From Shimia sp. R10_1 (lineage in GTDB: Bacteria; Pseudomonadota; Alphaproteobacteria; Rhodobacterales; Rhodobacteraceae), in NCBI RefSeq assembly GCF_017744095.1, contig NZ_JAGHQX010000002.1:434001-498000 (forward strand): a DNA stretch of 64,000 nt. Direction: 5' to 3'. The notes beneath the pieces were generated by a model. That model ran no database searches, was not told where the DNA came from, and worked only from the letters and a program-made list of their open reading frames with translations. A program made the translations under genes and the position numbers. This document shows, in pieces, positions 849 to 29,021 of this stretch. Positions within the stretch are counted from its first letter, which is position 1, and every line of letters starts with the position of its first letter.

Positions 849-881
849 GCGTTACAGACGCAATACAGACGCGATACCGAC
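849..881 (-). repeat. Array of three tandem 11-bp units in the divergent radC upstream region
   Basis: Plus-strand units at 849-859, 860-870 and 871-881 read GCGTTACAGAC, GCAATACAGAC and GCGATACCGAC. On the minus strand the consensus is close to GTCKGTAWYGC, repeated with an exact 11-bp period. It lies about 108 bp upstream of the binding-protein start at 741 and 67 bp upstream of radC. The same kind of array, with similar flanks, occurs at 28930-28962. Its function is unknown; phased protein binding or a dispersed repeat are both possible. Confidence 0.7.
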
Positions 882-947
882 GTTCGATTTTGCAGAAAAC
901 CGGCTGCTGTTAACCTTTAATTTACCATGTTTGGACATTGTTAACCT

Positions 948-1709
948 ATGTCCAGAGCGCGCGACTTTGGGGAACGGCCACTCCCGCTTTTTGAAGCGGA
1001 CGAGGCCGTTGGGTCGCCGCTAACGGCCGGTAAACGACCCTCCTATATTGCGGATCACCGCAAACGCCTGCGCAGCCGCTTCATTTCGGGCGGCGCGCAG
1101 GCTCTTCCTGATTATGAGCTTCTGGAGCTTGTCCTGTTCCGCGCCATTCCCCGTCAGGATGTCAAACCTCTAGCGCACAAGCTGTTGCAAACATTCGGAG
1201 ATTTCAACGCCGTGGTGAGTGCCCCAAGCCCGCGCCTGGCGGAGGTCAAAGGGGTGGGCGACGCCGTGATATGCGAGCTCAAGATTGTCGAGGCCGCCGC
1301 GCATCGGCTGGCCCGCGCCCGCGTGATGCATCGCCCCGTACTCTCTGGGTGGGAAACGCTGCTGGATTACTGCCATACCACCATGGCCCACCGCGACACA
1401 GAACAGTTCAGAGTCTTGTTTTTAGACACAAAAAACACGCTGATCGCCGACGAAGCGCAGGCAGAAGGCACCGTCAATCACGTCCCGGTTTATCCACGCG
1501 AAGTGGCCAAACGCGCGCTGGAACTCAACGCCAGTGCGCTGATATTGGTGCACAATCACCCGTCTGGCGACCCCACTCCGTCAGAAGCAGACATCGCCAT
1601 GACTCATCAAATCGACAGGGCTTGCCAGACCCTGTCTCTGATCCTGCATGACCATATAATCATTGGGAAATCTCGTGAATTGAGCTTCCGCGCCGAAGGG
1701 CTGATTTAG
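948..1709 (+). CDS. radC: RadC family protein (JAB/MPN domain)
   Basis: This 253-residue protein has the usual RadC length and layout. An N-terminal helix-hairpin-helix-like region (about residues 25-110, including the block VKGVGDAV) precedes a C-terminal JAB/MPN metalloprotease-like domain. The metal-binding signature is visible as H202-N-H204, PSGDPTPS and D215. RadC proteins are named for DNA repair, but a direct repair role has been disputed and the true biochemical activity remains uncertain. The gene stands alone, convergent with the PstS/OmpA fusion gene only 1 bp away. Confidence 0.92.
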   Translation: MSRARDFGERPLPLFEADEAVGSPLTAGKRPSYIADHRKRLRSRFISGGAQALPDYELLELVLFRAIPRQDVKPLAHKLLQTFGDFNAVVSAPSPRLAEVKGVGDAVICELKIVEAAAHRLARARVMHRPVLSGWETLLDYCHTTMAHRDTEQFRVLFLDTKNTLIADEAQAEGTVNHVPVYPREVAKRALELNASALILVHNHPSGDPTPSEADIAMTHQIDRACQTLSLILHDHIIIGKSRELSFRAEGLI

Positions 1710-1710
1710 G

Positions 1711-3270
1711 TCACTTGACCCAGATCTCCACCCGCCGGTTCACCTGTCGCCCCCAGGCGCTGTCATCACAGGCCATAGGCATCGCCTCGCCAAAGGCATG
1801 CACCTGTAGATCCATGCGATCTGGGTTCGCTGTCTCCGCTGCCGCAAGCACCGCTTTCATCACTGAGTCAGCGCGGCGTTGCGCTATTTTTTGGTTGCCA
1901 GCCGCTGGTCCGTTTCCATCTGAAAACCCAACAAAATAAAGGCTTCTCGCATCATAAACCCCTGCCTCAAAGGCCCGTGCAAGTTGCTGCACATTTGAGC
2001 GCGACTGCGCATCCAGCTTTGAGGACCCGGCCTGAAATCTGAATGAAATCGACAACCGCTTCATACCCGACAGTGTGCTTGTCATGCGTTGCAGATCAGC
2101 AAGCTCTACCTCCTCTCCAGCCGCAGAAATCGCATTGGCAAAACGGTCTCCCTGCAGGTTGATGGACACTTCTTCAGCTGTTTGATCCACAAAACCAGCC
2201 CGGCGTATCACGATCTGTGCCGCTGGGCCTCGGGTGTAGCTGAGAAAGTCTCGCGCAATTTTGGGCAAACGCCGCGCTGGAAAATACAGAAACATCGGGG
2301 CGTTAAGCGGATAGTCTTCGGTTTTGATCGTCCGTCTGGACGCCGCCAGAGAAAATCCGCAAGAGCCTCGCAAGGTCACGAGCTGCGTATTGGAGCGCTC
2401 GGCGTAAGACGCGATTCCAATCGCAAAAGGATCGCGCTCGACAGCCTTTATCAGCGCCTCATTTTGAACGTGCCGCACCGCTGTTTCCGCGGTGGTGGCG
2501 TTGGCCCGTTTCATCAACTGGTCTTCAACCGCCTGCGCAAAACCAGACTCCGCCGCCATCATATGTACCGAGATCGGTGCATCTGGGCCGCCAAGTTCAG
2601 ACCAATTGGCTATTTTTCCTGAAAAAACTTCCGCCAGTTGCTGCAATGACATCGCGGTGACAGGGTTGCCCGGCGCCACAACCGGCACCATCCCATCCAA
2701 CGCCAACACGCGGCTGCGGTTGGCGTCGGTCATATCCCCCAAACCCGCTTCATATCCAAGTTCCGCTTCTTTGGGCCGGATCTCGCGTAGAGACATCGCT
2801 ATGTCAGCCTCATCTGCGAGAAGGTCGGCAAAACCCTCCTCTGCACTGCTGGCATGAAAGCGAAAACGCGCAAGGGTTTCACCACTGTCCGACGCAGCGA
2901 GCACATAAGTAAAACGTTGTTTGTTTTCAGATTTTCGGGAAACCCTATACCCTTCAGCCTGCGCAAACGCTTCCAGCAAGGCAGGCATGAGGATTTCAGC
3001 CATAGTGGCGGAACCAGATATGGCAACATCTGCCACGAAGTTGATCAAATTGGGGCACCCCGGCCCTTCACAGAACACGCCGGAGCCATCCACAGTGAGT
3101 TCGCCGTAGATCGTTTGAACCCGATAGAATTCACCATCAAATCCAAGAAGCGTGCCGGAGATTTCCACATCACCATCGTGGGATTTCAGAAAAACATCCT
3201 GCGAAACCGCTGATGTAACACCCAAAAAAAGAAAAAGTGCGGCGCAAACCGCCGCACGAAAATGCATCAT
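1711..3270 (-). CDS. PstS-like binding domain fused to a C-terminal OmpA domain
   Basis: The 519-residue protein starts with a signal peptide (MMHFRAAVCAALFLFLGVTSAVS). A short beta-rich segment follows (about 25-80). Then comes a phosphate-binding-protein-like module (about 85-345; blocks ISGSATMAEILMP, AESGFAQAVEDQ and GIASYAERS). The C-terminal OmpA/MotB-type domain (about 390-519) has the FVGFSDGNGP block and ends in NRRVEIWVK, which normally binds peptidoglycan. This suggests a periplasmic protein anchored to the cell wall that binds a small ligand, rather than a transport component; no Pst transporter is nearby. The hypothetical gene lies 21 bp upstream, probably in the same transcript. 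Ligand and role are unknown. Confidence 0.8.
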   Translation of the reverse strand: MMHFRAAVCAALFLFLGVTSAVSQDVFLKSHDGDVEISGTLLGFDGEFYRVQTIYGELTVDGSGVFCEGPGCPNLINFVADVAISGSATMAEILMPALLEAFAQAEGYRVSRKSENKQRFTYVLAASDSGETLARFRFHASSAEEGFADLLADEADIAMSLREIRPKEAELGYEAGLGDMTDANRSRVLALDGMVPVVAPGNPVTAMSLQQLAEVFSGKIANWSELGGPDAPISVHMMAAESGFAQAVEDQLMKRANATTAETAVRHVQNEALIKAVERDPFAIGIASYAERSNTQLVTLRGSCGFSLAASRRTIKTEDYPLNAPMFLYFPARRLPKIARDFLSYTRGPAAQIVIRRAGFVDQTAEEVSINLQGDRFANAISAAGEEVELADLQRMTSTLSGMKRLSISFRFQAGSSKLDAQSRSNVQQLARAFEAGVYDARSLYFVGFSDGNGPAAGNQKIAQRRADSVMKAVLAAAETANPDRMDLQVHAFGEAMPMACDDSAWGRQVNRRVEIWVK

Positions 3271-3291
3271 TGTGATGTCCTGACCGCCAGC

Positions 3292-4299
3292 TTAATTTTG
3301 CGCGATTGTCAGGTTTTGCACCAGGTTTTTCAACACCAGAAATTCACCAACTGCGGTGCAATCTGGCATTTGAATTTCCAGCTCATGCCGTACTGACACT
3401 TCGCCTCTCGTCAGCCCAAGACTTGTCAGGCGCACCTCTTGGTCGCAGTTGGCCTCTGTCACCGCAGCTTCAATGCTGATCTGGATCTCACCTTGGCTGC
3501 TGCTGATGCCTGATGGGAAGGTATAGATTTCTGCCTGCGCAGACTGTGGCCCACCCGCGGCTCCCAGGCTCAACAGAAAGCCTGCATTGCCCCCAACCAA
3601 CGCGCTGACATTGCGAGGGGCTTCGCGCCACACATGCCCGCTCTCTCCATAGAACGCGCCAAATTCGCGTGCATGAAGCTCTGGTCCTGCTTCACCGCGC
3701 CATTGCATCACGACCCGATCATAAAGCGGCAAAGCATCAATCCGCGCGGAGGCAACCGCACCGTCTCCATTGGCAAAAGTCGCAGCAAACACAGCCGTTT
3801 CTGACAGCGCAGGCACGATCAGTTCGGCACTGCCTTCGCGTGAAACCTCGGCATGAAAGGCCAGATCCTCATGCTCGATCAGAACGCGCTCATTTGGATG
3901 ACAAGGCGCGATGAGTTGAAGCGACACAAGCGCTGCCGCCGATGGTTCTGCGCGCAGTTCAGGGCCACAGCCAAGCGCTGGGATCTGCTCTTCATTCGGC
4001 AACAGGCCAACTGGCAAATCGTCCGCCACAGCCACCAGCACCTGTTGCTGTGGCAGGCTTGTTGCGTGCCTCACGTCTGCGGGCATGGAGGGCAAGCTTT
4101 GGCGCGTGCCCAAATGTGGCACCGCTACGTCCTTTGGCAGGGTAACAGGCCCATTCAGATCGGCAGATGCGATACCCTCCTGATCTGATGACACAACAGC
4201 GGCTTCGCTGGTTTGCATCACAAAGCCGATGCAAGCCGCAGTGGAGGCTGTCGCAAATGCAAAGGCATAGCGGCGGTAAACATTTTTGAGATTCTGCAT
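3292..4299 (-). CDS. Secreted hypothetical protein
   Basis: The 335-residue start at 4299 is chosen because a GGAG box sits 6 bp before this ATG; the frame is open further up to 4362. An N-terminal hydrophobic segment (about residues 10-30, YAFAFATASTAACIGFVMQT) suggests export or a membrane anchor. The remainder is rich in alanine, glutamate and proline, with a few cysteines and no motif I recognise. I believe similar proteins occur beside secA in other roseobacters, sometimes loosely labelled translocase, but I see no such activity in the sequence. It probably forms an operon with the PstS/OmpA gene downstream. Function unknown. Confidence 0.7.
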   Translation of the reverse strand: MQNLKNVYRRYAFAFATASTAACIGFVMQTSEAAVVSSDQEGIASADLNGPVTLPKDVAVPHLGTRQSLPSMPADVRHATSLPQQQVLVAVADDLPVGLLPNEEQIPALGCGPELRAEPSAAALVSLQLIAPCHPNERVLIEHEDLAFHAEVSREGSAELIVPALSETAVFAATFANGDGAVASARIDALPLYDRVVMQWRGEAGPELHAREFGAFYGESGHVWREAPRNVSALVGGNAGFLLSLGAAGGPQSAQAEIYTFPSGISSSQGEIQISIEAAVTEANCDQEVRLTSLGLTRGEVSVRHELEIQMPDCTAVGEFLVLKNLVQNLTIAQN

Positions 4300-4349
4300 C
4301 GTGGCTCCTTCTGAGATCGCAAATCCCGTCAGGACACTTTCACAACAGA

Positions 4350-4374
4350 AAAGGGCGCTCATAAGGCGCCCTTT
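4350..4374. terminator. Intrinsic terminator downstream of secA
   Basis: A perfect 9-bp inverted repeat, AAAGGGCGC and GCGCCCTTT, surrounds a 7-base loop. Read on the minus strand it follows the secA stop by about 30 bp and ends in four T residues, so it can terminate secA transcription before the hypothetical gene at 4299. Confidence 0.6.
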
Positions 4375-4404
4375 AGATCATTGTCTGTCGTTGGCGCTGA
4401 AAAG

Positions 4405-7128
4405 TCAGGCCAGTTTGCCGTGGCAATGTTTGAATTTCTTGCCCGATCCACAAGGGCAAGCTTCGTTGCGCCCGGGGTTGCCCCATGTCGATGGATCATT
4501 TTCGTCAAAGCCTGCGATGGCTTCTCCGGCGGGCTGACCAGTCGCAGCGGCGTCACTTTGCGCAGGCGCCGTGTTGGTTTGTGCAGCACTCATCATCGCC
4601 TGCTGACGTTGTGCCATCTCCAGTGCGAGTTGTTTTTGCTCGTCTTCGGAAATTGGACGAACGCGCGACAACATGGTTGTCACATCAATCCGCAGGCTGT
4701 CGAGCATGCTTTCAAACAGCTGGAACGCTTCGTTTTTATATTCGTTCAGCGGATCACGCTGCGCATAACCGCGGAAGCCAACAACAGAGCGCAGGTGCTC
4801 CAACGTCAGAAGGTGCTCACGCCACTTGCTGTCAATGGTCTGCAGCAACACCTGCTTTTCGATCATGCGCATGGCATCTGGACCAAAGCTGGTGGCCTTG
4901 GCAGCCATCATCTCATCAGCGGCTTTCTCAAGGCGTTCACGCATGCTGTCATCATCCACGCCTTCTTCATCGGCCCAGTCAATCACGGGCACGTCAACAC
5001 CCAGATGTTCAATGGAAGCCGCATAAAGCCCTTCTGTGTCCCATTGATCGGCATAGGTTTTGGGCGGCAGGTGACGCTCCACCAGATCGTCAATCACTTC
5101 ATGGCGCATGTCCTGCACGATCTCAGACAGATCGGCGGCTTCCATAATTTCCCGACGCTGGGAGAAGACCACTTTACGTTGGTCGTTCATTACATCGTCG
5201 AATTTCAGAAGCTGCTTACGGATGTCAAAGTTGCGGCCCTCGACCTTTGCCTGCGCACGCTCTAGGGATTTGTTGACCCAAGGGTGCACGATCGCCTCAC
5301 CTTCTTTCATGCCCAGCGACGACAGCACTTTGTCCAGACGGTCAGAGCCGAAGATACGCATCAGATCGTCTTCGAGGCTCAGGAAGAAAGAGGACCGACC
5401 CGGATCGCCCTGACGGCCAGAGCGGCCGCGCAGCTGGTTGTCGATGCGGCGGCTTTCATGGCGCTCTGTGGCCAGAACAAAAAGTCCACCAGCCTTTTTC
5501 ACGGCCTCTTCATCATCCACATGCTTGGTTTCAATCTCAGCACGTAGCGCTGAGTGATCCCCATCCGGATCTGCCGCGATGGCTTCAAGCACCTTAAATT
5601 CAACGTTCCCGCCAAGTTTAATGTCGGTGCCGCGACCGGCCATGTTGGTGGCGATTGTGACTGCACCCAGCTTGCCAGCATCGGCAACAATCTGGGCTTC
5701 CTGCTCGTGCTGGCGGGCGTTCAGAACGTTGTGCTTCACGCCTGCCTTTTCCAGCAGACCGGACAGGAACTCTGATTTTTCAATCGAGGTGGTGCCCACA
5801 AGGATCGGCTGACCCTTTGCATGTGCTTCCTTGATGGTTTCAACGATGGCGTCGAATTTCTCGCGCGCTGTGCGGTAAACCGCGTCGTCTTCATCAATCC
5901 GCGCCACACCTCGGTTGGTCGGCACTTCCACCACACCCAAACCATAGATTTCATGGAATTCTTCAGCTTCGGTTGCCGCGGTGCCTGTCATGCCGCCAAG
6001 TTTGTCATAAAGGCGGAAGTAGTTCTGGAAAGTCACCTGCGCCAATGTCACGTTCTCTGGCTGGATCTGACAACCCTCTTTGGCCTCGATCGCCTGGTGC
6101 AGACCGTCAGACAGACGACGCCCAGCCATCATGCGGCCAGTGAATTCGTCGATCAGCACAACCTGACTGTCGCGCACAATGTAGTCTTTGTCTTTGACGA
6201 ACAGCTTGTGTGCCCGCAGGCCCTGGTTCACATGGTGCACCAGCGTTGTGCTTTCCGGATCATAAAGGCTTTGCCCCTCAGGAAGGAGCCCCCGCGCGTG
6301 CAGATGCTCTTCCAGAAATTCGTTGCCCTCATCCGTGAAGGTCACGTTTTTCGCTTTTTCGTCGAGCGTGTAGTGGTCGTCTTGCACATCCGGAATGAGC
6401 TTATCGATCGCAACGTACATCTCGGTACGGTCTTGTGCCGGGCCAGAAATAATCAGCGGCGTCCGCGCTTCGTCGATCAGGATGCTGTCGACCTCGTCCA
6501 CGATGGCGAAGTGATGATCGCGTTGCGACATCTCCGCGAGCTCGCTCTTCATGTTGTCGCGCAGATAGTCAAAACCAAGTTCGTTGTTGGTGGCGTAGGT
6601 AATGTCGCAAGCGTAGGCGGCGCGTTTTTCATCTTCAGGCTGCTGCGGATACACAACACCAGTGGTCATCCCAAGCGCCGCAAAAACGTTGCTCATCCAA
6701 TCCGCGTCGCGACGAGCGAGATAGTCGTTCACCGTCACCACATGCACACCCTTGCCGGTCAGCGCATTCAGATAGGCCGGGAAAGTCGCCACAAGGGTTT
6801 TGCCCTCACCCGTCTTCATTTCAGAGATATTGCCCTGATGCAGGAAGATGCCGCCCATCAGCTGCACGTCAAAGGCGCGCAGGCCAAGGGCACGTTTCGC
6901 AGCTTCGCGGCAGTTGGCGAAGGCTTCCGGCAGAAGGGCATCCAGCGACTCGCCACCTTTGGCGCGCTCCGCCAGCTCTTGAGTTTTGGCCTTCAGATCA
7001 TCGTCAGACAGTTTTTCAAAGTCGGGCTCAAGTGCGTTGATCTTTTCGACAAGTGGCCGGGTCGCTTTGACTTTGCGGTCATTTGGCGTGCCAAACACTT
7101 TTTTGGCGATTTTTCCGAAACCGAGCAT
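4405..7128 (-). CDS. secA: Preprotein translocase ATPase SecA
   Basis: The 907-residue protein has the full SecA layout. The Walker A region is near residues 102-110 (MKTGEGKTL). The [14 protein letters not shown] block of the first nucleotide-binding domain, the second helicase domain ([15 protein letters not shown] and [11 protein letters not shown]) and the C-terminal zinc-binding tail with C891, C893, C902 and H903 are all visible. It drives post-translational export through SecYEG and carries SecB-bound clients. It is divergent from the periplasmic parvulin gene, so an export motor and an export-folding factor share a promoter region. Length and motifs are complete, with no sign of damage. 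Confidence 0.98.
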
Positions 7129-7297
7129 ATAACTTGTCCTTCGTTGCGCTTTCGTGCGTGGCTAATTCTTGCTGTCCCGGCCCTGTGCTCCTAGAAACGG
7201 GAAACAGCCTGTTTGCCTTGACCTCAGAGCGATGTAAGGGTCGTCAGGAACAGTGTCAACGCCGCCAAGTGGTGCGGCACCAGCCAAGGACGAAACG

Positions 7298-8167
7298 ATG
7301 TCAAAACACCTCAATTTCTTGCGCGCCACTGCGGTTGCCGCCTGCTTTGCTCTCCCTGCGTTTGCACAGGAAGATCCATCGCTGGACACCGTCGTCGCAA
7401 CCGTCAACGGCGAGGCGATCACATTGGGTGACATGATCTCGATCCGCGCCGGTTTGCAGCCGCAATATCAGCAGCTTCCGGCAGAAACGCTTTTTGCCAG
7501 CATTCTGGAGCAGCTTGTGCAGCAAACCGCGCTGGCGCAGTCCCTGAACGAAAATGTCCCGCAGTATATCGAAATTGCACTCAACAATGAACGTCGCACC
7601 TTGATGGCAGGCGAAGCGCTGGAAGCTTTTGTGGCGCAAAACGAAATCAGTGACGAAGAATTGAAGAGCGCCTATCAAGATCGCTATGCGAACTATGAAG
7701 GGGCGGAAGAATACAACGCCAGCCACATCCTTGTTGCAAGCGAAGAAGAGGCTGTTGCGATCCGCCAAGACCTGCAAGACGGCGCAGACTTTGCAGAAAC
7801 CGCAAAAGAGAAATCCACCGGCCCGTCCGGTGCATCTGGTGGCAGCCTCGGCTGGTTTGGCGCAGGCCAAATGGTCAAGCCTTTCGAGGATGCGGTTGCA
7901 GAGCTGGCTGTTGGGGAAATCTCGCAGCCAGTGCAGACGCAATTTGGCTGGCACCTGATCATCCTGAACGACGCCCGCAAATCCGAAGCGCCTTCTTTTG
8001 AAGAGGCGCGTCAGGAGTTGCTGAATGATGCACAGCGCACCGCAGTGCAGGCTTATATCGCCAAACAGTCGTCTGAAGCGGTTGTGGATCAATCCCCAGC
8101 TGACAGCATTGACCCCTCTGTTCTGCAGCGCATCGACCTGCTGAACCCAGTGCGCGTTCAGGAATAA
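7298..8167 (+). CDS. Periplasmic parvulin-type peptidyl-prolyl isomerase
   Basis: The ATG at 7298 is preceded by AAGGA at 7-bp spacing and gives 289 residues with a signal peptide ending near FALPAFA. An N-terminal SurA/PrsA-like helical region follows (VNGEAITLGDM, with QLVQQTALAQ). The parvulin domain (about residues 130-235) shows YNASHILVASEEEA, GGSLGWFGAGQMVKPFEDAV and TQFGWHLIIL, all typical of the rotamase fold. It probably helps exported or outer-membrane proteins fold. It is the first gene of a short run with argJ (3 bp away) and mutT, and is divergent from secA. Confidence 0.88.
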   Translation: MSKHLNFLRATAVAACFALPAFAQEDPSLDTVVATVNGEAITLGDMISIRAGLQPQYQQLPAETLFASILEQLVQQTALAQSLNENVPQYIEIALNNERRTLMAGEALEAFVAQNEISDEELKSAYQDRYANYEGAEEYNASHILVASEEEAVAIRQDLQDGADFAETAKEKSTGPSGASGGSLGWFGAGQMVKPFEDAVAELAVGEISQPVQTQFGWHLIILNDARKSEAPSFEEARQELLNDAQRTAVQAYIAKQSSEAVVDQSPADSIDPSVLQRIDLLNPVRVQE

Positions 8168-8170
8168 TTC

Positions 8171-9400
8171 ATGGCAGAGATCACCACTGTGTCACCATTG
8201 GCTCCGGAACATTTTCCGGAGCTTCCCTTGATCGAAGGCGTCAAGTTTGCGGCGGTTGAAGCCGGTATCAAATACGCAGGGCGCAAAGACGTGATGCTGG
8301 CCGAGCTGGTGCCCGGCACGACAATGGCCGGCGTGTTCACCAAATCGGCCACCCGCTCTGCCGCCGTGCTCGATTGTCAGGACAAGATCGGACAAGACAG
8401 TGATGCGGGCGCTGCTATCCTTGTGAACGCGGGCAATGCCAATGCGTTCACCGGCAAGAATGGAGTCAGTTCTGTCAAAGCCGTCACCGAAGCGGTTTCG
8501 GCCTGTGTCGGGCTGCCCGAGGCGCGCGTGTTCACCTCCTCCACCGGTGTGATTGGCGAACCGCTTCCGCATGATCGGATCACAGGAAAACTTGAGGAGC
8601 TGAAAGGCAAACTCTCCGCCAATGCGATTGGTGATGCCGCAGAGGCCATTCGCACCACAGATACCTTCGCCAAGGGCGCCATGCGGTCTGTCAGCATCGG
8701 CGGCCAGACGGTGAAAATTGCTGGGATCGCAAAAGGTTCTGGCATGATTGCGCCTGATATGGCGACCATGCTGGTCTATATTTTCACGGATGCAAAAATC
8801 GCGCGCGCCGATTTGCAAGAGCTGGTCTCTTCTCTCAACGAAGTCACGTTCAATGCCATCACGGTGGACAGCGACACGTCTACGTCTGACACACTGCTGA
8901 TGGCCGCAACTGGCGCGTCAGGCGTCGCGGTGGATCGGGACGAAACGGCCTTCAAAGGGGCCTTGCATGAAGTGATGCGGGAGCTCGCACATCTCGTGGT
9001 GCGCGACGGCGAAGGCGCGACCAAGTTTGTTGAGATCAACATCAGTGGCGCAGCCAGCGCAGAGGACGCGCGTGCGCATGCCATGGCGATCGCCAATTCA
9101 CCGTTGGTGAAAACCGCGATCGCCGGGGAAGATCCAAACTGGGGCCGTATCGTCATGGCGATCGGAAAATCCGGCGCGCGTGCGGACCGTGACCTTTTGA
9201 GCATTCGATTTGGGGATACGCTGGTTGCCGAAAATGGCTGGGTTGCGCCGTCCTACAAAGAAGAAGACGGGGCCACCTACATGCAAGGCCAAGAGATCGC
9301 GATCAACGTGGATCTCGGACTGGGCACTGCCACGGATACGGTTTGGACCTGCGATCTGACCCACGGATACATCACGATCAACGCGGATTATCGGTCATGA
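8171..9400 (+). CDS. argJ: Bifunctional glutamate N-acetyltransferase / amino-acid N-acetyltransferase
   Basis: The 409-residue protein is ArgJ of the arginine pathway, which moves the acetyl group from N-acetylornithine to glutamate. The self-cleavage site that yields the alpha and beta chains is visible in the block MIAPDMATML, with T199 as the new N-terminal nucleophile. Other family blocks are VNAGNANAFTG, STGVIGEPL, SDTSTSDT and GEDPNWGRIVMAIG. Whether it also uses acetyl-CoA cannot be read from sequence. It starts 3 bp after the parvulin gene, and its stop overlaps the mutT start (ATGA), so translation is probably coupled. Confidence 0.96.
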   Translation: MAEITTVSPLAPEHFPELPLIEGVKFAAVEAGIKYAGRKDVMLAELVPGTTMAGVFTKSATRSAAVLDCQDKIGQDSDAGAAILVNAGNANAFTGKNGVSSVKAVTEAVSACVGLPEARVFTSSTGVIGEPLPHDRITGKLEELKGKLSANAIGDAAEAIRTTDTFAKGAMRSVSIGGQTVKIAGIAKGSGMIAPDMATMLVYIFTDAKIARADLQELVSSLNEVTFNAITVDSDTSTSDTLLMAATGASGVAVDRDETAFKGALHEVMRELAHLVVRDGEGATKFVEINISGAASAEDARAHAMAIANSPLVKTAIAGEDPNWGRIVMAIGKSGARADRDLLSIRFGDTLVAENGWVAPSYKEEDGATYMQGQEIAINVDLGLGTATDTVWTCDLTHGYITINADYRS

Positions 9401-9795: not shown

Positions 9796-9820
9796 GCGCG
9801 AGATTGAGCAAAAGCCCTAA

Positions 9821-20319: not shown

Positions 20320-20325
20320 GTTCAA

Positions 20326-20583: not shown

Positions 20584-20620
20584 CGTGTTTCCTTTGTGCA
20601 CTCATGTGTTTGTCAGGCAT

Positions 20621-21385: not shown

Positions 21386-22186
21386 CTCACTGACAGACCA
21401 ATGCTGACCCGCAATCGCGCGCGCGCTGATCTGAAAGACGCGATGTTCCTACACGATATGGCGATAGATGAGGTTCAGGATCGGCTCAGCATGGTTAACA
21501 AAGGGTTTACATCCCCAGCCATCGTGACCGGATTTCCCAGCATCTGGCAGCGATGTGTCCCAAACGCAAAGATCGTCGAAGACACAGAGGTGCTCGCTCT
21601 GGAACAGGGTGCGCATGACCTCCTGATACACGCGATGGGGCTGCATTGGGCGGACGACCCTGTCGGGCAAATCATTCAGAGCCGTCGTGCTTTGAAAAAT
21701 GATGGGTTGTTTCTAGCGGTGTGTTTTGGCGGCCAAACACTGCATCAATTGCGCGCAGCCCTTGGGCAGGCGGAGGTAGAACTCTCTGGCGGACTGTCGC
21801 CACGCGTCGCGCCGATGGCGGAAATCAGAGATCTCGGAAGCCTCTTGCAGCGTGCTGACCTGGCACTGCCTGTGGCTGACACTGCCCCCATAACTGTGAC
21901 CTATGAAACGCCTTGGGCTTTGATGAGCGAGCTGCGAAAAATGGGCGAAGGCAATGCGCTACAGGGGCGCATTCGCACGCCAACGAAGCGGTCCATTATG
22001 ATCCGCGCTTGCGAAATTTACGTAGATAGCTTCATGAAAAATGGTCGCATACCCGCAACTTTTGAATTGATCTATCTGACAGGGTGGGCCCCTGACGCCA
22101 GCCAGCCCAATCCGCTCAGGCCGGGATCGGCCACAACCCGACTTGCCGACGCGCTCGGCGCTTCTGAAATCAAACTGCCCAAGTGA
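21368..22186 (+). CDS. Methyltransferase-fold protein with a degenerate SAM motif
   Basis: From the ATG at 21368 the protein has 272 residues. The C-terminal half resembles the BioC/NDUFAF5-like methyltransferase group (HDLLIHAMGLHWADDPVGQI, RRALKNDGLFLAVCFGGQTL). Where a glycine-rich SAM motif I is expected, the sequence reads AIVTGFPSIWQRC, with no GxGxG. It may bind SAM weakly, act on a protein, or be inactive. It overlaps the possible GTG start of hemH. Cellular role unknown. Confidence 0.75.
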   Translation: MQNRPHLTDRPMLTRNRARADLKDAMFLHDMAIDEVQDRLSMVNKGFTSPAIVTGFPSIWQRCVPNAKIVEDTEVLALEQGAHDLLIHAMGLHWADDPVGQIIQSRRALKNDGLFLAVCFGGQTLHQLRAALGQAEVELSGGLSPRVAPMAEIRDLGSLLQRADLALPVADTAPITVTYETPWALMSELRKMGEGNALQGRIRTPTKRSIMIRACEIYVDSFMKNGRIPATFELIYLTGWAPDASQPNPLRPGSATTRLADALGASEIKLPK

Positions 22187-22212
22187 CTGCACACGGAACG
22201 GACCCTATTTTT

Positions 22213-23265
22213 ATGACTCACGCCACTTGCCCAGCCCACGCCCCTGCGGATCACCCGAAGGTCGCGCGAGGCAAAACCGGCATTCTGCTCGCCAACCTTG
22301 GCACCCCTGACGATTATAGTTACTGGCCGATGCGTCGGTATTTGAACGAATTTCTCTCCGACAAACGTGTGATCGATTACCCAGCATGGAAATGGCAACC
22401 CATTCTGCAGCTCATCATTCTCACCAAACGTCCGTTCTCAAGCGGCGAAGCTTACGAATCGATTTGGGACAAAGAGCGCGGCGAAAGCCCACTGATGGTG
22501 ATCACCAAGGAGCAGACCGCCAAAATTGCGGAGACTATGAAAGACCGCCATGGCGAGGACGTGATGGTGGATTTCTGTATGCGCTACGGCAATCCCTCAA
22601 CGATTTCAAAAGTACGCGAGATGGTGGCCGCAGGCTGCGAGCGCATTCTGTTCTTCCCACTCTATCCCCAATACGCGGGCGCAACGACTGCCACGGCAAA
22701 CGATCAGTTCTTCCGCGCGCTGATGAAAGAAAAATGGCAGCCCGCGGCGCGCACGGTCTCCGCCTATTTTGAACACCCAGCCTATATTGAAGCCTTGGCA
22801 CAATCGGTCGAAAAAGCCTACGCGGCTCAAGACAAACGACCAGAGTTGCTGGTTGTGTCATATCACGGCATGCCAAAGCGCTACTTGCAGGAGGGGGATC
22901 CCTACCATTGCCAATGCCAAAAAACCACGCGTCTGCTGAAAGAGCGTCTTGGCTGGCAGGACACTGATTTGCGGACCACTTTCCAATCACAGTTTGGCCC
23001 AGAGGATTGGTTGCGCCCCTACACGGTCGAAGAAGTTGCGCGTATCGCCAAGGAAGAAGGCAAGAAAAGCATCGCCGTGATTGCGCCAGCTTTCTCTGCT
23101 GACTGCATCGAAACGCTGGAAGAGATCAATGAAGAGATCAAAGAAAGCTTCGAGCACGCAGGGGGCGAAGAGTTTCTCTATATTCCGTGCCTGAACTCGG
23201 ATGCCGGCCACATCAACGCGCTGTGCGAGATCATCGACGAAAACCTAGGTGGTTGGGTGCGATAG
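22213..23265 (+). CDS. hemH: Ferrochelatase
   Basis: The 350-residue protein from the ATG at 22213 (a GTG at 22183 overlapping the previous stop is an alternative) is a typical ferrochelatase: TGILLANLGTPDDYSYWPM, SPLMVITKEQT, FPLYPQYAGATTAT, SYHGMPKRYLQEGDPY, TFQSQFGPEDWLRPYT and SDAGHINALCEII. It inserts iron into protoporphyrin IX, the last step of haem synthesis. It ends before a bidirectional terminator shared with a small membrane protein gene. Confidence 0.97.
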   Translation: MTHATCPAHAPADHPKVARGKTGILLANLGTPDDYSYWPMRRYLNEFLSDKRVIDYPAWKWQPILQLIILTKRPFSSGEAYESIWDKERGESPLMVITKEQTAKIAETMKDRHGEDVMVDFCMRYGNPSTISKVREMVAAGCERILFFPLYPQYAGATTATANDQFFRALMKEKWQPAARTVSAYFEHPAYIEALAQSVEKAYAAQDKRPELLVVSYHGMPKRYLQEGDPYHCQCQKTTRLLKERLGWQDTDLRTTFQSQFGPEDWLRPYTVEEVARIAKEEGKKSIAVIAPAFSADCIETLEEINEEIKESFEHAGGEEFLYIPCLNSDAGHINALCEIIDENLGGWVR

Positions 23266-23347
23266 CACCCAATTGCGGACTAACCGATCTGCGCCAGATT
23301 CAGCCCCTGATCCAAATTTTGCGGATCAGGGACCTCAAATTCCAAAG

Positions 23348-23377
23348 AAAAAGGCGGGGCCAAAACCCCGCCTTTTT
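23348..23377. terminator. Bidirectional terminator between hemH and the small membrane protein gene
   Basis: AAAAAGGCGGGG and CCCCGCCTTTTT pair perfectly over 12 bp around a 6-base loop, with T or A runs on both ends. It can end hemH on the plus strand and the 61-residue gene on the minus strand. Confidence 0.9.
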
Positions 23378-23400
23378 CAATTTCGACAAGCTTAAAAAGC

Positions 23401-23586
23401 TTAGCTGCCAGCAGCTACAGCTGCAGCAACAACTGCGAGCAGAAGCAGTGGAACCCAAACGCCAGTGCCGGAACCGTTTGCGACTTCTTCAATCACAACA
23501 GGCTCAACAACTGGGTCGGCCAGGCCGCCAGCCATTGCGGTGGTTGCAGCAGCAGTCAGAGCAGCAGCGATAACGAGTTTTTTCAT
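23401..23586 (-). CDS. Small exported or membrane protein, 61 residues
   Basis: The start at 23586 has GGAGG 5 bp upstream. Residues 1-19 are a signal peptide (MKKLVIAAALTAAATTAMA). A short acidic proline/valine segment (DPVVEPVVIEEV) and one C-terminal hydrophobic helix (VWVPLLLLAVVAAAVAAG) follow. I believe very similar proteins occur after hemH in other roseobacters, sometimes labelled ferrochelatase by proximity, but nothing in it suggests that activity. Function unknown. Confidence 0.75.
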   Translation of the reverse strand: MKKLVIAAALTAAATTAMAGGLADPVVEPVVIEEVANGSGTGVWVPLLLLAVVAAAVAAGS

Positions 23587-23642
23587 AGTATCCTCCAGAA
23601 TTCGCGTGTCACCAATAGGAATGGGCGATGACAAGCACCCAA

Positions 23643-23659
23643 GACTTACCTCGTAAGTC
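23643..23659. promoter_or_regulatory. Short inverted repeat upstream of the small membrane protein gene
   Basis: GACTTAC and GTAAGTC flank a CTC loop, 57 bp before the small gene's start. It may be an operator or an mRNA leader hairpin; nothing else supports a function. Confidence 0.3.
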
Positions 23660-23732
23660 ACCTCTAAACAGTAATTTTTCCGAATTGCAAACCGAAGATT
23701 ACCTTAGACGCGACTCCTTCGAGCAAATGTCG

Positions 23733-24329
23733 TCAAATTAGCAACACCTGCGTTCCCACTTTCGTCAATGAAAACAGCTCCGCGATGTGCTCGTTGTAAA
23801 GACCGATACAACCATTGGACGATCTACGCCCAATTTTACGAGTGTCGTGGGTTCCGTGAATGCGATAATAGGTCCAACTCAAATAAAGCGCATGAGTCCC
23901 CAAGGGGTTATCTGGGCCAGGGCCCACAAAATCGGGCCATTCAGGATTGCGTTTTTTCATCGAGGGCGTCGGACGCCAGCTCGGTCCCTCGACTTTGCGC
24001 ACAACTTTGGTACGCCCAAGGCGCGTCAACTCTTCGCTCAGAGGAACGGACGTGGGGTATAGCTTGTAGGTCGATTCGTCTTCTGACCAATAATGCAGCG
24101 CACGGGAGGTCACATCGACCAGCACTGCCCCATTGTTCAAATTGTCAAAGTAAGGCCGCCAATCCAAAGAGCGGAAGCTCGAGATATTGCGGACCACACG
24201 TTCATCGAGGTCGCGCTCTACCTCGGTTGTACTATCTTCGGTTTGCGCAAGTGCCGGGGTACTCAGAAACGCGGCGCTGCCTGCCAAAAACGTTCGCCGA
24301 CCAAATTTATTCGACCGCTCTACAGTCAT
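23733..24329 (-). CDS. L,D-transpeptidase (YkuD domain), secreted
   Basis: Starting at 24329 (GGAG, 7-bp spacing) gives 198 residues. The N-terminus is a twin-arginine-like signal (GRRTFLAGSAAFLSTPALA). The YkuD catalytic block contains H158 and C174 in IHGTHDTRKIGRRSSNGCIG. These enzymes make 3-3 cross-links in peptidoglycan or attach proteins to it. A second such enzyme lies 1.3 kb away, with a CAP-domain lipoprotein between them. Confidence 0.9.
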   Translation of the reverse strand: MTVERSNKFGRRTFLAGSAAFLSTPALAQTEDSTTEVERDLDERVVRNISSFRSLDWRPYFDNLNNGAVLVDVTSRALHYWSEDESTYKLYPTSVPLSEELTRLGRTKVVRKVEGPSWRPTPSMKKRNPEWPDFVGPGPDNPLGTHALYLSWTYYRIHGTHDTRKIGRRSSNGCIGLYNEHIAELFSLTKVGTQVLLI

Positions 24330-24498
24330 TATTTTTCTCCAGAAACCAATCTCACGGGCCTGTGAGATCATATGGCTGTAATGCCGCAGTCGCAAATCAA
24401 TCAATCGTCAGGGTAGCAATGTCACGCCTATGTGGGTTTTCATGGACACGCTGTGCGGTTAGGAGTGCCGCAATTAACTAGGTGGGACAGAGATTAAG

Positions 24499-25065
24499 AT
24501 GCGCGTTATTGCTCTTTTGCTGGCAGCAGCGGTGGGATTGGCCGCTTGCGGAACAAGTGGCGGCGGAAGCGCCAAACAGTACAGAATCGATTCGGGCAAC
24601 ACGTCTCGTGTGCAATTCAGGGTCCTGGACTCAGTGAATGCGCTACGTCAGGCCTCCGGTGCGCCAGCAGTTACACTTAACGCCCAGCTGAATGCAGCCG
24701 CGGCAACCCATGCGCGCGATATGTCCCGACAAAACCGGCCATGGCACTTTGGCTCTGATGGCTCTTCCCCTCTCGATCGCGTCGCACGCGTCGGCTACCC
24801 GGGCACGCTAAGCGGTGAAACCATCAGCGAGAGCTATGAATCCGAAGTGGAGACCCTCGCAGCATGGATGGAGCAGGACGATACACGTTCGGTCATCTTG
24901 GACCGTGCGGCTCGCGATATGGGATTTGCCTGGTTTCAGGAAGACAACGGAAAAATCTGGTGGACGCTTGTGATGGGTGAACCCACCACAGCTCAGTTTA
25001 CCACGGTCGCTGACACGCAGACCTCCGAAGCAAGCGACACGAACCCCTTCTCATCGATAAATTGA
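24499..25065 (+). CDS. CAP (SCP/PR1) domain lipoprotein
   Basis: The 188-residue protein has a lipobox (GLAAC, C17) for lipid attachment. A CAP domain spans about residues 40-165: LDSVNALRQASGAPAVTLNAQL, AAATHARDMSRQNRPWHFGSDG, GETISESYES, AARDMGFAWF and WWTLVMGEP. Bacterial CAP proteins are poorly understood, and some associate with the cell envelope. Its 3' end overlaps the convergent L,D-transpeptidase gene by 15 bp. Confidence 0.85.
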   Translation: MRVIALLLAAAVGLAACGTSGGGSAKQYRIDSGNTSRVQFRVLDSVNALRQASGAPAVTLNAQLNAAAATHARDMSRQNRPWHFGSDGSSPLDRVARVGYPGTLSGETISESYESEVETLAAWMEQDDTRSVILDRAARDMGFAWFQEDNGKIWWTLVMGEPTTAQFTTVADTQTSEASDTNPFSSIN

Positions 25066-25545
25066 GACCGGAGTTCCGGTTCTCACCATCGCGTAGACAT
25101 CACGCATTTCAGCATCGGTCACCGCAACGCATCCAGCGGTCCAGTCTTCGACACCGTTCTGGAAGGCTTTCGGGCGGCCATGAATGAAAATATCACCGCC
25201 CGGCGATTTGCCGATGGACGCGGCATATGCACGGTCGGCTGCGTTGGGGTATGAGATGCCAAGCGAAAGATAGAAGCGGCTGTTGGGGTTGCGACGGTCA
25301 ATGTAATAGTCGCCTTCAGGCGTCCGCCCGTCACCTTCGATCTGCTTGTGTCCGGTCGGTGAGAACCCGAGCCCAACCTCATAAGCCTGTAGCACCTGAT
25401 CATGATGCATCAGATACATCCGGCGGCTTTCTTTATAAATCAAAACCCGCGTCACTTCTGGACCCGTATAGGTTTTGAATTTCTCGGCGCAGCCTGCCAG
25501 TCCGAATGCCAAAACAGCAATCATCAATGCGGAGATCCAACGCAT
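25051..25545 (-). CDS. L,D-transpeptidase lipoprotein (YkuD domain)
   Basis: The 164-residue protein has a lipoprotein signal (GLAGC, C19). The YkuD domain has H122 in IHGRPK and C139 in WTAGCVAVTDAEM, the catalytic pair, and the substrate-side block GDGRTPEGDYYIDRRNP. It should act on peptidoglycan peptides from a membrane anchor. It is convergent with and overlaps the CAP gene. Confidence 0.9.
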   Translation of the reverse strand: MRWISALMIAVLAFGLAGCAEKFKTYTGPEVTRVLIYKESRRMYLMHHDQVLQAYEVGLGFSPTGHKQIEGDGRTPEGDYYIDRRNPNSRFYLSLGISYPNAADRAYAASIGKSPGGDIFIHGRPKAFQNGVEDWTAGCVAVTDAEMRDVYAMVRTGTPVSIYR

Positions 25546-25636
25546 TAACCAGTTCCTCTTTATATGTCTTCACTGCCTCTGAGCGTTTCTTAGCAGACCG
25601 GCTAGCCTTATGCCGCTCACGCCTGCGTGATACGCT

Positions 25637-26851
25637 TTATTTCCGAACAAATCTTGAAGCCAATTCCACGTGGGAAGACCAGCGAAATTGATCAACTGTT
25701 TGCACCCACTCAAGCGTATATCCCGCGTGCACCAGCACCGCGGCATCACGTGCAAATGTCACCGGGTTGCAGGAAACATAAGCGATTTCAGAGATTTGTG
25801 ACTTGGCGAGTTCCGCCACCTGCGCCTCAGCTCCGGCGCGTGGAGGGTCAATGACTGCAAAGTCATAGCGCAAATCCTCAGCGATCACCGGATTGCGGAA
25901 CAGATCGCGGGTCTCTGCTGTCACTTTTTTCAGCCCTTTGGCCATGCGCCATCCGACGTCCATGGCTTTGACCATGGATTTCTCACCTTCGATGCCATGC
26001 ATCCTGTAGCTTTCTGCCAGCGGCAGGGTGAAGGTGCCACTGCCTGCAAACAGATCAATCCCAGTATCCCCCTGCGTGATGGCTGCGCGTACAGCGGACA
26101 GCAAAGCCTCCTCGCCCTCTTTGGTGGCTTGCAAGAATGCACCGGGAGGCGGAATAACCTGCGCCGTTCCAAAGGTTTGGTAAGGTGCAAACCGGGTCGC
26201 GATGACTTCGCCATCCCAGCTCAGACGGGCCAGTTTATGGCGCTCAGCCTCTTGGGCCATACGCGCGAGCAGTTGGCCATCCAGCGGCTTGCCGCCTTTC
26301 ACAGACAGATCAAGCCCCGCGTCTGACAGGGTAACCGTAGCACTGAGTTCGCCTTTGCGCGATCCAGCGATTTGGGACAAAGCGCCCACAATGTCCAAGG
26401 CGGGCATCAGATCTGGGTGCAGAAGCTGGCAGTCGCTGATGTCGGCGATCACATCCGAGGCGCGGGCATGAAAGCCAACAAGCGCGCCTTTTTTGGTGCG
26501 GCGAGCTGAGATCACCGCGCGGCGGCGCGATCTGGCGGGGGAGGTCACGATCGGGCGTAAGTCAGTTTCCAAACCCTGCGCAGCCAACGCCTGACGCACC
26601 ACATCGACTTTCCAATCGGCGACAAATTCATCCGCTGCGTGCTGCAACTGGCAGCCACCACAGGTCTTGAAATGCCGACACGGTGCCTTCACCCGCTGAT
26701 CTGACGGAGTCAAAACACGCATATTTTTCAGTCGGTTGCCCTCAATCTCCCCTTCGACGGTTTCACCGGGCAGGGTAAGCGGGGCAAAGATTGGACCCTC
26801 GGCAATTCCATCGCCGTGCAGGCCCAGTCGCTGGATGTCGATCTGGCTCAT
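25637..26851 (-). CDS. Class I SAM-dependent RNA 5-methyluridine methyltransferase (RlmD/TrmA family)
   Basis: The ATG at 26851 gives 404 residues; the frame is open up to 26887. The N-terminal cysteine cluster CRHFKTCGGCQLQH, with a further Cys, indicates a [4Fe-4S] centre. The SAM-binding block is GIDLFAGSGTFTLPLA, and the catalytic region has IDPPRAGAE and YVSCNPVTFARD. It methylates uridine in rRNA or tRNA; which site cannot be told. It lies 40 bp after the ABC exporter gene, so they may be co-transcribed. Confidence 0.9.
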   Translation of the reverse strand: MSQIDIQRLGLHGDGIAEGPIFAPLTLPGETVEGEIEGNRLKNMRVLTPSDQRVKAPCRHFKTCGGCQLQHAADEFVADWKVDVVRQALAAQGLETDLRPIVTSPARSRRRAVISARRTKKGALVGFHARASDVIADISDCQLLHPDLMPALDIVGALSQIAGSRKGELSATVTLSDAGLDLSVKGGKPLDGQLLARMAQEAERHKLARLSWDGEVIATRFAPYQTFGTAQVIPPPGAFLQATKEGEEALLSAVRAAITQGDTGIDLFAGSGTFTLPLAESYRMHGIEGEKSMVKAMDVGWRMAKGLKKVTAETRDLFRNPVIAEDLRYDFAVIDPPRAGAEAQVAELAKSQISEIAYVSCNPVTFARDAAVLVHAGYTLEWVQTVDQFRWSSHVELASRFVRK

Positions 26852-26890
26852 GCCTGTCCCCCTAACGAGGGACAGGCGCGAGGTCAAATG

Positions 26891-28732
26891 TTACTCAGCC
26901 GCCTCATCGGCATTGAGAAAGCCGCCGGACTGACGCGCCCAGAAACCGGCATAAAGACCATTCTGCGCGAGAAGCTCTGCATGGCTGCCCTGCTCTACGA
27001 TACGGCCTTGATCCATAACCAAAATTCGATCCATCTCGGCAATCGTGGACAGGCGGTGCGCGATGGCGATCACGGTTTTGCCCGCCATCATACCGTACAA
27101 CGTGCGTTGAATGGCGGCCTCGACCTCACTGTCCAGAGCGCTGGTCGCTTCGTCCAAGAGCAGAATCGGCGCGTCCTTCAGGATCACCCGAGCCAGCGTG
27201 ATCCGCTGACGCTGACCGCCGGAGAGTTTCACGCCACGCTCGCCCACATGAGCATCATAGCCTTTACGCCCCTCCGGATCCTCCAAATCCAGAATAAAAT
27301 CATGGGCTTCGGCTTTTTTGGCGGCGGCGATCATCTCCGCCTCAGAGGCATTAGGACGACCGTATAACAGGTTGTCCCGAACAGACCGGTGCAGCAGCGA
27401 ACTGTCCTGTTGCACCATACCGATGGCATCGCGCAGGCTGTTTTGCGTGACCTTGGAGATGTCCTGACCGTCGATCAAGATCCGACCGCTTTCCGCATCA
27501 TAGAACCGTAGAAGAAGCTTCACCAAAGTCGATTTGCCCGCACCCGAACGGCCAATCAGGCCAACCTTTTCGCCCGGCGCAATGGACAGGGCGATCTGAT
27601 CCAGCCCACCAGAGCCGCGACCGTAGTGGTGCGAAAGATGATCAATCTCGATCTGCCCTTGGCCAAAATCAAGCGAAGGTGCTGACTTTTCATCTACCAA
27701 ATCAATGGGTTGGGCAATTGTCTCCATACCTTCAGCCACCACACCAAGTTGGCGGAAAAACGAGGTGAGCGCCCACATGATCCAGCCGGTCATCGCATTC
27801 AGGCGCAGGCTGAGCGCGGTGGCGGCGGCAACCGCCCCAACCGAAGCTTGTCCCAAAGACCAGAGCCAGATCGCCCAGCCGACAACGCTGACGATCAGCA
27901 CACCATTGAGCACCACCAGCGCCACGTCCATGATGGTGAAAATCCGCATCTCCGCCTGAAAGGTTTCCCGTGAATATTCAATGGCTTCCTTGGCATATTC
28001 CAGCTCGCGCTGATTGTGGGCAAAAAGCTTGACCGAGTGGATGTTAGTATAAGCATCCACCACGCGGCCAGTGACTTTGGAGCGCGCATCAGAGGCGGCC
28101 TGAGAGGCCGGACCGACCCGTTTGACTGTCCATTTCACAAGGAAGCCATAGAGCACCAGCCAGCCGAGCATGGGCAGCACCAGACGGGGGTCTGCCTCGG
28201 CCAAAAGGATAGCAGCACCAATGACATAGGCGATGGAGAAGGTGATGGCATCAAAGACCTGAAACACCGCCTCGCCGGCGGCGGGTGGGGTCTGCATAAT
28301 GCGGTTCGCGATGCGGCCGGCGAAGTCATTTTCAAACCAGCCAACCGATTGACGCAAAACATGTTTATGGGCCCGCCAGCGGATCAGTGTGCCAAAATTG
28401 GGCAGCACCGTGTTGTTCAACAACAGCACATCCAGCGCCTGAAGCGCGGGGCGCAGGAACAAAACGAAGAGCACCACGATGATAAACTCGGTGCCATGTT
28501 CAGCCCAAACGGTGGACGGATCGCCGGTCAGAAGGTCCACGACACGGCCCATATAGGCGATCAGACCGACCTCCACCGCCGCCACAATGATGGACATTAT
28601 CGTCGCAAAAACAAAGACTTGGCGGAATGGTTGCGCATAGTCGCGCAGGAAGGGCCAAAGCTTGGTCGGCGGCGCGTCTACTTCATCGTAGTCGCAATAG
28701 GGGTCAACGAGAGTCTCGAAAAACTTGAACAT
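26891..28732 (-). CDS. ABC exporter, fused membrane and ATPase domains
   Basis: Starting at ATG 28732 (613 residues; frame open to 28789) the protein has six predicted membrane helices in residues 30-330. A nucleotide-binding domain follows, with Walker A GRSGAGKST, signature LSGGQRQR, Walker B ILLLDEATSALD and the switch histidine AHRLST. It is a half-transporter that must dimerise. MsbA/multidrug-type exporters have this form; the substrate is unknown. The start has no strong ribosome site. Confidence 0.9.
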   Translation of the reverse strand: MFKFFETLVDPYCDYDEVDAPPTKLWPFLRDYAQPFRQVFVFATIMSIIVAAVEVGLIAYMGRVVDLLTGDPSTVWAEHGTEFIIVVLFVLFLRPALQALDVLLLNNTVLPNFGTLIRWRAHKHVLRQSVGWFENDFAGRIANRIMQTPPAAGEAVFQVFDAITFSIAYVIGAAILLAEADPRLVLPMLGWLVLYGFLVKWTVKRVGPASQAASDARSKVTGRVVDAYTNIHSVKLFAHNQRELEYAKEAIEYSRETFQAEMRIFTIMDVALVVLNGVLIVSVVGWAIWLWSLGQASVGAVAAATALSLRLNAMTGWIMWALTSFFRQLGVVAEGMETIAQPIDLVDEKSAPSLDFGQGQIEIDHLSHHYGRGSGGLDQIALSIAPGEKVGLIGRSGAGKSTLVKLLLRFYDAESGRILIDGQDISKVTQNSLRDAIGMVQQDSSLLHRSVRDNLLYGRPNASEAEMIAAAKKAEAHDFILDLEDPEGRKGYDAHVGERGVKLSGGQRQRITLARVILKDAPILLLDEATSALDSEVEAAIQRTLYGMMAGKTVIAIAHRLSTIAEMDRILVMDQGRIVEQGSHAELLAQNGLYAGFWARQSGGFLNADEAAE

Positions 28733-29021
28733 GAGAAAGCCTGAAAAACAGATAGGAAAAATAAGTGCATAGATGAAATGACATGCCAAACCTGGCCGTC
28801 ATTGCGGTCAGATTGGCTTATGAAAACCAGATCCCACGATACATCCTGCACTCCTTCTCATGGTTGAGTGCGGCGATGCTGCGCGAGCGTTGCGCCAAAG
28901 TCAACCGGCATTAACCAAGTTTTTGCAACGTCGGTATTGCGTCGGTATCCCAACGGTATCGCGGAGGTGGATTTTTTGTGGCGGCGCCAAAGGTAAGCAC
29001 AAGGTGCGCTGGTGTTGCGGA
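28733..29021. other. Intergenic region between the ABC exporter and cca
   Basis: About 290 bp without a convincing gene. It must hold the exporter promoter on the minus strand, and it contains the 11-bp repeat array at 28930-28962. An open frame on the minus strand (28858-29160) overlaps cca out of frame and has no family features. Confidence 0.6.
28930..28962 (+). repeat. Second array of three tandem 11-bp units
   Basis: Units at 28930-28940, 28941-28951 and 28952-28962 read GTCGGTATTGC, GTCGGTATCCC and AACGGTATCGC. The period, orientation pattern and flanks (TTTTTGCAA before, CGCGGAGGTG after) match the minus strand of the array at 849-881. It lies about 200 bp upstream of the ABC exporter start and 60 bp after the cca stop. 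It is probably a dispersed element or phased binding site; function unknown. Confidence 0.75.

Follow-up and report, generated by a model that had tools for sequence, protein, structure and literature searches.

Introduction

Several bacterial systems are known in which a ribbon-helix-helix (RHH) protein binds dispersed or repeated DNA sites. In Myxococcus xanthus, CdbA is a small RHH nucleoid protein that has more than 500 direct-repeat sites over the chromosome and is not a classical transcription regulator (PMC7156744). Its sites are two-copy direct repeats, approximately 65% of its peaks are within genes, and it binds cyclic di-GMP (PMC7156744). The RHH protein ParR acts on tandem direct repeats, parC, which are 11 bp in plasmid R1 and lie beside the operon, and the repeat sequence is family-specific (PMC9426499). 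SegB, also an RHH protein, has sites that are 13-bp palindromes, 83.7% of which are found inside genes (PMC12284271). In this study, which was based on a stretch of 64,000 nucleotides from Shimia sp. R10_1 (contig NZ_JAGHQX010000002.1, positions 434,001 to 498,000; hereafter the window) and on the comparison of the R10_1 genome with its relatives in the Rhodobacteraceae, we describe a family of intergenic arrays of tandem 11-bp units, two of which lie in the window. We consider it likely that the arrays are approximately 65 dispersed sites for a solitary protein of the BrnA type, a predicted RHH protein, which would mark or organise the chromosome as part of a cooperative and co-diversifying system.

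An array family in the genome of Shimia sp. R10_1

A pattern of two units was found 116 times in the whole R10_1 genome (4.37 Mb in 39 contigs) compared to twice for the reversed pattern. In the window, the same pattern with up to three mismatches gave four overlapping matches, which were confined to the places of the two arrays, while 100 shuffled windows gave none. A sequence model of the family that was built from 51 arrays returned 70 rows at E ≤1, which correspond to 66 separate places; 65 of these reach E ≤0.001, and the remaining one is weak (E 0.05). The preliminary description, which had proposed a dispersed element from the two loci in the window, is borne out by these further copies, which bring the number in this genome to approximately 65, and by their intergenic position (see below). 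Both arrays were recovered on the strands that it had given, with three 11-bp units each. Their features are as follows (upstream positions are relative to the first unit):

849..881, minus strand: array 1, three tandem 11-bp units, read from 881 to 849 as GTCGGTATCGC GTCTGTATTGC GTCTGTAACGC; family-model match at C22:434833-434892, 53.1 bits
841..848, minus strand: array 1, truncated fourth unit GGGAGTGC, from the sequence and the family consensus GDMGGTGC
834..839, minus strand: array 1, right-hand AT tract GATTTT, from the sequence and the family consensus
887..891, minus strand: array 1, left-hand AT tract AAAAT at -10 to -6 (family consensus AAAT at -9 to -6)
28930..28962, plus strand: array 2, three tandem 11-bp units GTCGGTATTGC GTCGGTATCCC AACGGTATCGC; family-model match at C22:462922-462979, 61.2 bits
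28963..28970, plus strand: array 2, truncated fourth unit GGAGGTGG, from the sequence and the family consensus
28971..28977, plus strand: array 2, right-hand AT tract ATTTTTT, from the sequence and the family consensus
28920..28924, plus strand: array 2, left-hand AT tract TTTTT at the family position of the AT tract, with T replacing A

The family is a 41-bp element of three 11-bp units near GTCGGTATYGC and a truncated fourth unit, with AT tracts on both sides. The consensus of 60 arrays reads AAAT-N3-AC, GTCGGTATTGC, GTCKGTATCGC, GDCKGTATYGC, GDMGGTGC and AATTTT, and its information content drops within approximately 15 bp on either side; the 60 arrays, which also served for the context and skew analyses, exclude the duplicate locus L023 and eight of the 68 regular-expression rows that had only two units. 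The agreement of both flanks that had been claimed for arrays 1 and 2 held on the right side, where it is due to the truncated fourth unit (GDMGGTG) and the AT tract that follows it, both kept over the 60 arrays. The left side is weaker than claimed: the distance between TTTYTGCAA and the first unit is not the same in arrays 1 and 2, and the family as a whole keeps there an AT tract, with mostly A or T at -9 to -6, and the dinucleotide AC or GT directly before the first unit. Tandem-repeat slippage or chance would account for the tandem structure and for a number of units that ranges from two (L131) to approximately seven (L057). That reading, to which we assign next to no probability, is already refuted by the control counts above and by the fixed truncated end together with the number of units, which is exactly three in 51 of the 60 arrays and four in the other nine.

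Further analysis of the units showed that position 9 (model columns 21, 32 and 43) alternates between T and C in adjacent units, as TCT in 23 and as CTC in nine of the 51 arrays of the model. An RNA hairpin between units, an idea that came from this alternation, was dropped after reading the alignments because the columns that would pair do not vary in concert, one staying constant where the other changes; it is also disfavoured by the arrays in tandem gaps, which have no strand preference relative to the genes. A search of the window against Rfam gave no match at the gathering score. TTAACC or GTTAAC stretches, which resemble CtrA half-sites, are located at 28911-28916 (plus strand) and 827-832 (minus strand) of the window, and appeared by eye to be common near many R10_1 arrays. 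Among the other loci, L057 (C38:247086-247185) is imperfect and unusually long, and lies near what looks like an acyl carrier protein gene, while L054, L058 and L059 (the C34 end, the C1 start and the C3 end) have a common upstream sequence and are perhaps 3' of ribosomal RNA operons, where the assembly breaks.

A candidate partner protein

In two other genera, an array directly precedes a gene whose product has a BrnA_antitoxin (PF14384) domain. BrnA has an RHH fold. In the R10_1 genome, the solitary gene of this type is located outside the window (G000:C37:104620-105033). PF14384 was above the cut-off in all seven of the proteins that were scanned (E 4e-12 to 2e-14), and the proteins, which are approximately 110-175 amino acids long, have an N-terminal part of their own. 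An NCBIfam scan gave nothing above the cut-off, and the comparison of solved structures with the profile of the protein gave four matches (E 0.5-0.7), all to unrelated proteins. Pfam scans of 20 of the 33 neighbouring open reading frames (at least 60 amino acids, within 300 bp of the gene, six loci) found neither a BrnT toxin nor a ParM-like or other NTPase partner. A gene of a 4HBT thioesterase lies upstream of the RHH gene in L230 and L239.

Upstream of the RHH gene, the best period was 11 in 45 of 52 loci, one of which (L245) is unconvincing as an array. A period-11 score of at least 10 was reached upstream in 57 of 79 full-length and three of 17 weak RHH loci compared to none of 94 downstream regions, the 96 upstream loci containing the R10_1 gene twice (L204, L230) and 22 members of the genus. 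By reading, 18 of the 22 genus members have such an array, and in many genomes it lies approximately 55-100 bp before the start codon. Within the genus, 22 of 25 genomes had 49-97 array matches and the gene was found in the same 22, while in G201, G220 and G221, which had one, one and no array match, it was not found. This suggests that arrays and gene were lost together. Across the family, relatives of the protein were detected in 43 of 198 genomes by a single sequence and in at least 75 by a profile, which scored the best 20 or fewer candidates per genome and may therefore have missed genes. With this profile, the gene was present in 31 of 39 genera with arrays and in 44 of 159 without (Fisher p = 4e-9), an association that carries an upward bias, to which we return in the Discussion. 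In G055 and G080, two of the genomes with arrays but no detected RHH gene, the low-scoring GTCGGTAT arrays (L138-L140, L147, L162, L163, L169, L182, L183, L186-L197) are possibly decaying.

Array classes in other genera

The units upstream of the RHH gene vary by genus and include GTCGGTAT, TCGGACTT, TCGGCAT, GTATGG, TGCAC, GTCTT and others. The classes that were scanned are themselves dispersed. GTATGG had at least four matches in 12 genomes of the family (maximum 159), TCGG at least five in 15 (maximum 132; the nine matches in G132 are longer simple tandem repeats) and TGCAC at least four in 13 (maximum 48), some counts of the last class being doubled because GTGCAC is identical on both strands. 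The reversed-pattern controls gave 0-3 matches per genome, except for 11 in G105 in the GTATGG scan. At least four dispersed matches of the same class as the upstream array were present in eight of nine genomes with GTATGG/GTCTGG, eight of nine with TCGG (the genus not counted) and seven of 13 with TGCAC, counts that in some genomes include the upstream array itself. G130 has a second RHH gene and an additional array class.

The class of the units also covaries with residues of the predicted DNA-contacting strand of the protein. The set comprised 44 rows, i.e., RHH loci that scored at least 10 and had a readable strand, with the genus counted once and the classes assigned by rule. Lysine at strand position 2 was found in 18 of 19 rows with GG-containing units compared to two of 25 otherwise (p = 3e-9), and arginine at this position in all 13 rows with TGCAC units. 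Tyrosine at position 6 occurred only with GTCGGTAT (4/4), and the mutual information between class and position 6 was significant under label shuffling (p = 0.0005). Moreover, two gaps between the same genes hold different classes. The gap between lpd and a MAPEG gene (names assigned by eye) is occupied by an array of the GTCGGTAT class in one genus and by one of the GTATGG/GTCTGG class in another (L262, L192), in the same direction and at a nearly equal distance from the start codon; in the serC-serA gap, the classes differ between L259 and L140 and the arrays have opposite directions relative to the genes. It is possible, though we hold it somewhat doubtful, that the Rhodobacteraceae have a drifting lock-and-key system of chromosome addresses, in which the RHH protein and tens of arrays would switch class together between genera, partly in place at array positions that are retained.

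Placement, spacing and GC skew

None of the 60 arrays overlaps a gene predicted by our own gene finder, which agrees with the intergenic location that had been noted for the first two. For the 56 arrays with both neighbours (four lacked a neighbour on one side), the gaps were convergent in 23, divergent in four and tandem in 29 cases, compared to expected numbers of 5.0, 19.4 and 31.6. The expectation was derived from 204 kb of R10_1 sequence that contain 90 gaps, only seven of them convergent. Many arrays lie 3-30 bp from stop codons. The convergent enrichment and the closeness to stop codons would both suit a global transcription regulator, in which the RHH protein would act as a block to convergent transcription or read-through at gene ends and would repress genes from arrays close to start codons. 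Such a role would also suit the arrays of some other genera (G125, G055, G072, G158), which lie 18-30 bp ahead of the predicted start codon of a gene, in some cases an amino-acid gene as judged by eye (chorismate mutase, serA, leuD). We consider a regulator of this kind unlikely as the explanation of the family. In the R10_1 genome the neighbouring genes are functionally mixed by eye, amino-acid genes having seemed frequent in other genera only; the arrays in tandem gaps point in one direction in 13 cases and in the other in 16, i.e., without preference; and some arrays (L011, L062) appear by eye to be already preceded by a terminator-like hairpin.

Nor does a regulator predict the spacing of the arrays or their alignment with the guanine-cytosine (GC) skew. 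Arrays are present on all nine R10_1 contigs of at least 246 kb, and in G035 they extend along C1 from 1.6 kb to 3.73 Mb. The spacing of 59 arrays on the nine contigs was more even than random: the smallest gap measured 9.8 kb, a value that none of 5000 random sets reached (null median 0.8 kb), and the coefficient of variation was 0.63 against 0.91 (p = 0.001). GC skew on the array strand was positive for 51 of 60 R10_1 loci, 25 of 26 genus loci and 32 of 39 loci of other genera, the last set containing at least one array twice (L109, L145); around the R10_1 loci it was similar out to 2.5 kb. The direction of the arrays shows no dependence on that of the genes (45% of the coding bases share the strand of the array, p = 0.43), and the skew of that strand remains positive even within genes that are encoded on the other one. 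The local alignment is thus not explained by gene direction. Polar guide sequences such as KOPS or SRS have a strand polarity that runs from origin to terminus. The R10_1 contigs, e.g., C22, carry arrays in both directions with a local skew that changes sign, and in G035, the one genome that was mapped, 22 of 33 arrays agree with the skew of the chromosome arm (p = 0.08, not significant); our claim is therefore one of alignment with the local skew and not of a proven origin-to-terminus polarity. Because of the even spacing, the convergent placement and the skew alignment, we tentatively favour a chromosomal role over a regulon.

Conservation of array positions

Among 27 arrays of other genus genomes, which were the best-scoring loci (the regular expression did not recover an array in L063 or L131), 15 had both flanks matching those of an R10_1 array in the same direction, six matched on one side and six on none. 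The one-sided cases (L124, L125, L126, L128, L129, L130) give the impression that arrays are frequent sites of change in gene content. In 16 orthologous pairs, some of whose left flanks are coding, the core was conserved above both flanks in seven and above the flank mean in 11. The clearest case was L114/L024 (0.95 compared to 0.00 and 0.37), while the advantage was missing in the pairs with a change in unit number (L009, L031) and in L074/L021 (0.80 compared to 0.89 and 0.79). At the position of an intact R10_1 array, G201 has a decayed one (L132/L019; 0.66). Positions also recur between genera, as named by eye: the chorismate mutase/GNAT gap holds an array in G119, G125, G151 and G158, the 3' end of GatB in R10_1 and G080, and the 3' end of RegA in R10_1 and G055.

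This conservation bears on a further explanation, in which the arrays represent a repeat of the REP or MITE kind, non-autonomously mobile or copied by repair, that is tolerated between genes, with the RHH protein as its regulator or a bystander. A 40-bp core is identical in L012, L029 and L036, the flanks of which look unrelated; the orthologous gap of Cognatishimia maritima has no array by the pattern that was used; integrase- or XerC-like genes were seen by eye near two arrays (L039 in R10_1 and L188 in G055); and tolerated repeats typically lie at the ends of genes. We regard this explanation as very unlikely, since conservation ends so close to the array, position and direction are kept in the 15 genus arrays and at some places between genera, and those genomes of the genus that lack the RHH gene lack the arrays too. 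Additionally, inspection by eye of the neighbours of the arrays that were read did not reveal a transposase, and the units are direct repeats without a palindromic unit or long terminal repeats, the only symmetry being that of the short AT tracts. One array queried in a plasmid collection and one in a phage collection gave no match, and a strict pattern gave no match in viral contigs.

Discussion

The reading that best survives is that of cooperative binding to helically phased units, which had been put forward in the preliminary description and is supported by the three-unit architecture, the even spacing, the avoidance of genes and divergent gaps, the co-loss in the genus and the strand covariation. 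The role in nucleoid organisation that was suggested there is supported by spacing and placement, and we hold it as a conjecture. In the proposed mechanism, one RHH dimer would occupy each of the three and a half units, and the 11-bp step would place all dimers on one face of the DNA, allowing head-to-tail cooperative binding as in ParR/parC, with the AT tracts aiding the bending of the DNA. In many genomes, R10_1 not among them, the protein may regulate its own gene through the array that lies upstream of its start codon. The remaining arrays would form polar nucleoprotein marks at even intervals. Most of these marks avoid promoters, and many lie where convergent genes end; they may help to organise or segregate the chromosome. 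As the specificity of the protein drifts, the array sequences of the lineage would drift along. Judged on sequence evidence, that the RHH protein binds the arrays is highly probable and its autoregulation through the upstream array is quite probable, whereas we are evenly divided on whether chromosome organisation is their main function.

Several points weigh against the picture of dispersed chromosomal sites for the BrnA-type protein. The RHH fold of the protein is a prediction from its Pfam match, and R10_1 itself, like L231, L239 and L245 of the genus, has no convincing array upstream of the gene. If the three array-less genomes of the genus belong to a single clade, which is possible, the co-loss may have occurred only once. 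The association over 198 genera is biased upward because the scanned classes were chosen from arrays upstream of RHH genes, and in eight array-bearing genera (G055, G080, G126, G133, G139, G147, G176, G180) the gene was not detected among the candidates scored by the profile. The residues of the covariation were grouped after the rows had been seen, with statistics that ignore kinship. In nine of the 16 orthologous pairs the core was not better conserved than both flanks. The non-significant agreement with the arms of G035 and the arrays close to start codons in other genera belong here as well.

If the picture is true, a large family of marine bacteria has an undescribed dispersed system of protein-DNA marks, in which a protein of a toxin-antitoxin family has turned into a chromosomal factor. 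Its proteins and their cognate sites would form a series of natural pairs in which the evolution of RHH specificity could be followed; the genus would supply losses that occurred in nature, and the selection for regularly spaced marks at the ends of genes would become accessible to study. Should the system of drifting addresses be true as well, it would represent a bacterial case of concerted co-evolution between a chromosome-wide DNA mark and its reader.

Comparison with known systems

The arrays were not described in the titles and starts of abstracts that were listed for the open-access literature. The elements of the mechanism all have precedents; within the same titles and abstract starts, their combination and the genus-by-genus change of site class are absent. 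SegB resembles the predicted protein as an RHH protein that organises the chromosome via dispersed sites, but its sites are palindromic and it belongs to another protein family. The matS sites are short palindromes that are restricted to the terminus region. MatP/matS likewise combines a chromosome-organising RHH protein with dispersed sites, whereas the R10_1 arrays are spread over nine contigs, are not limited to the terminus and are associated with another protein family. BrnT/BrnA shares the PF14384 domain; the protein described here differs in its own N-terminal part, in its dispersed sites and in having no BrnT among the 20 neighbouring open reading frames that were scanned. REP and BIME elements are also dispersed extragenic repeats, but the arrays are direct repeats rather than palindromes and co-occur with an RHH protein.

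Further likenesses are to CdbA and ParR/parC. With CdbA the system would share a small RHH protein, direct repeats, many chromosomal sites and, probably, a role other than that of a classical transcription regulator, the binding being predicted from sequence in our case; it differs in that the Shimia arrays have three and a half units, are intergenic, go with a BrnA-type domain and have a lineage-specific unit sequence. With ParR/parC it shares the tandem direct repeats beside the RHH gene, as seen in the 57 of 79 full-length loci, though not in R10_1, the 11-bp step of the R1 repeats and a repeat sequence that varies among lineages; parC, however, is a plasmid centromere that works with ParM, while here there are dozens of chromosomal sites and no ParM-like neighbour among the 20 scanned open reading frames. 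The best reading is that the arrays and the RHH protein would work like ParR/parC and CdbA, yet belong to neither.

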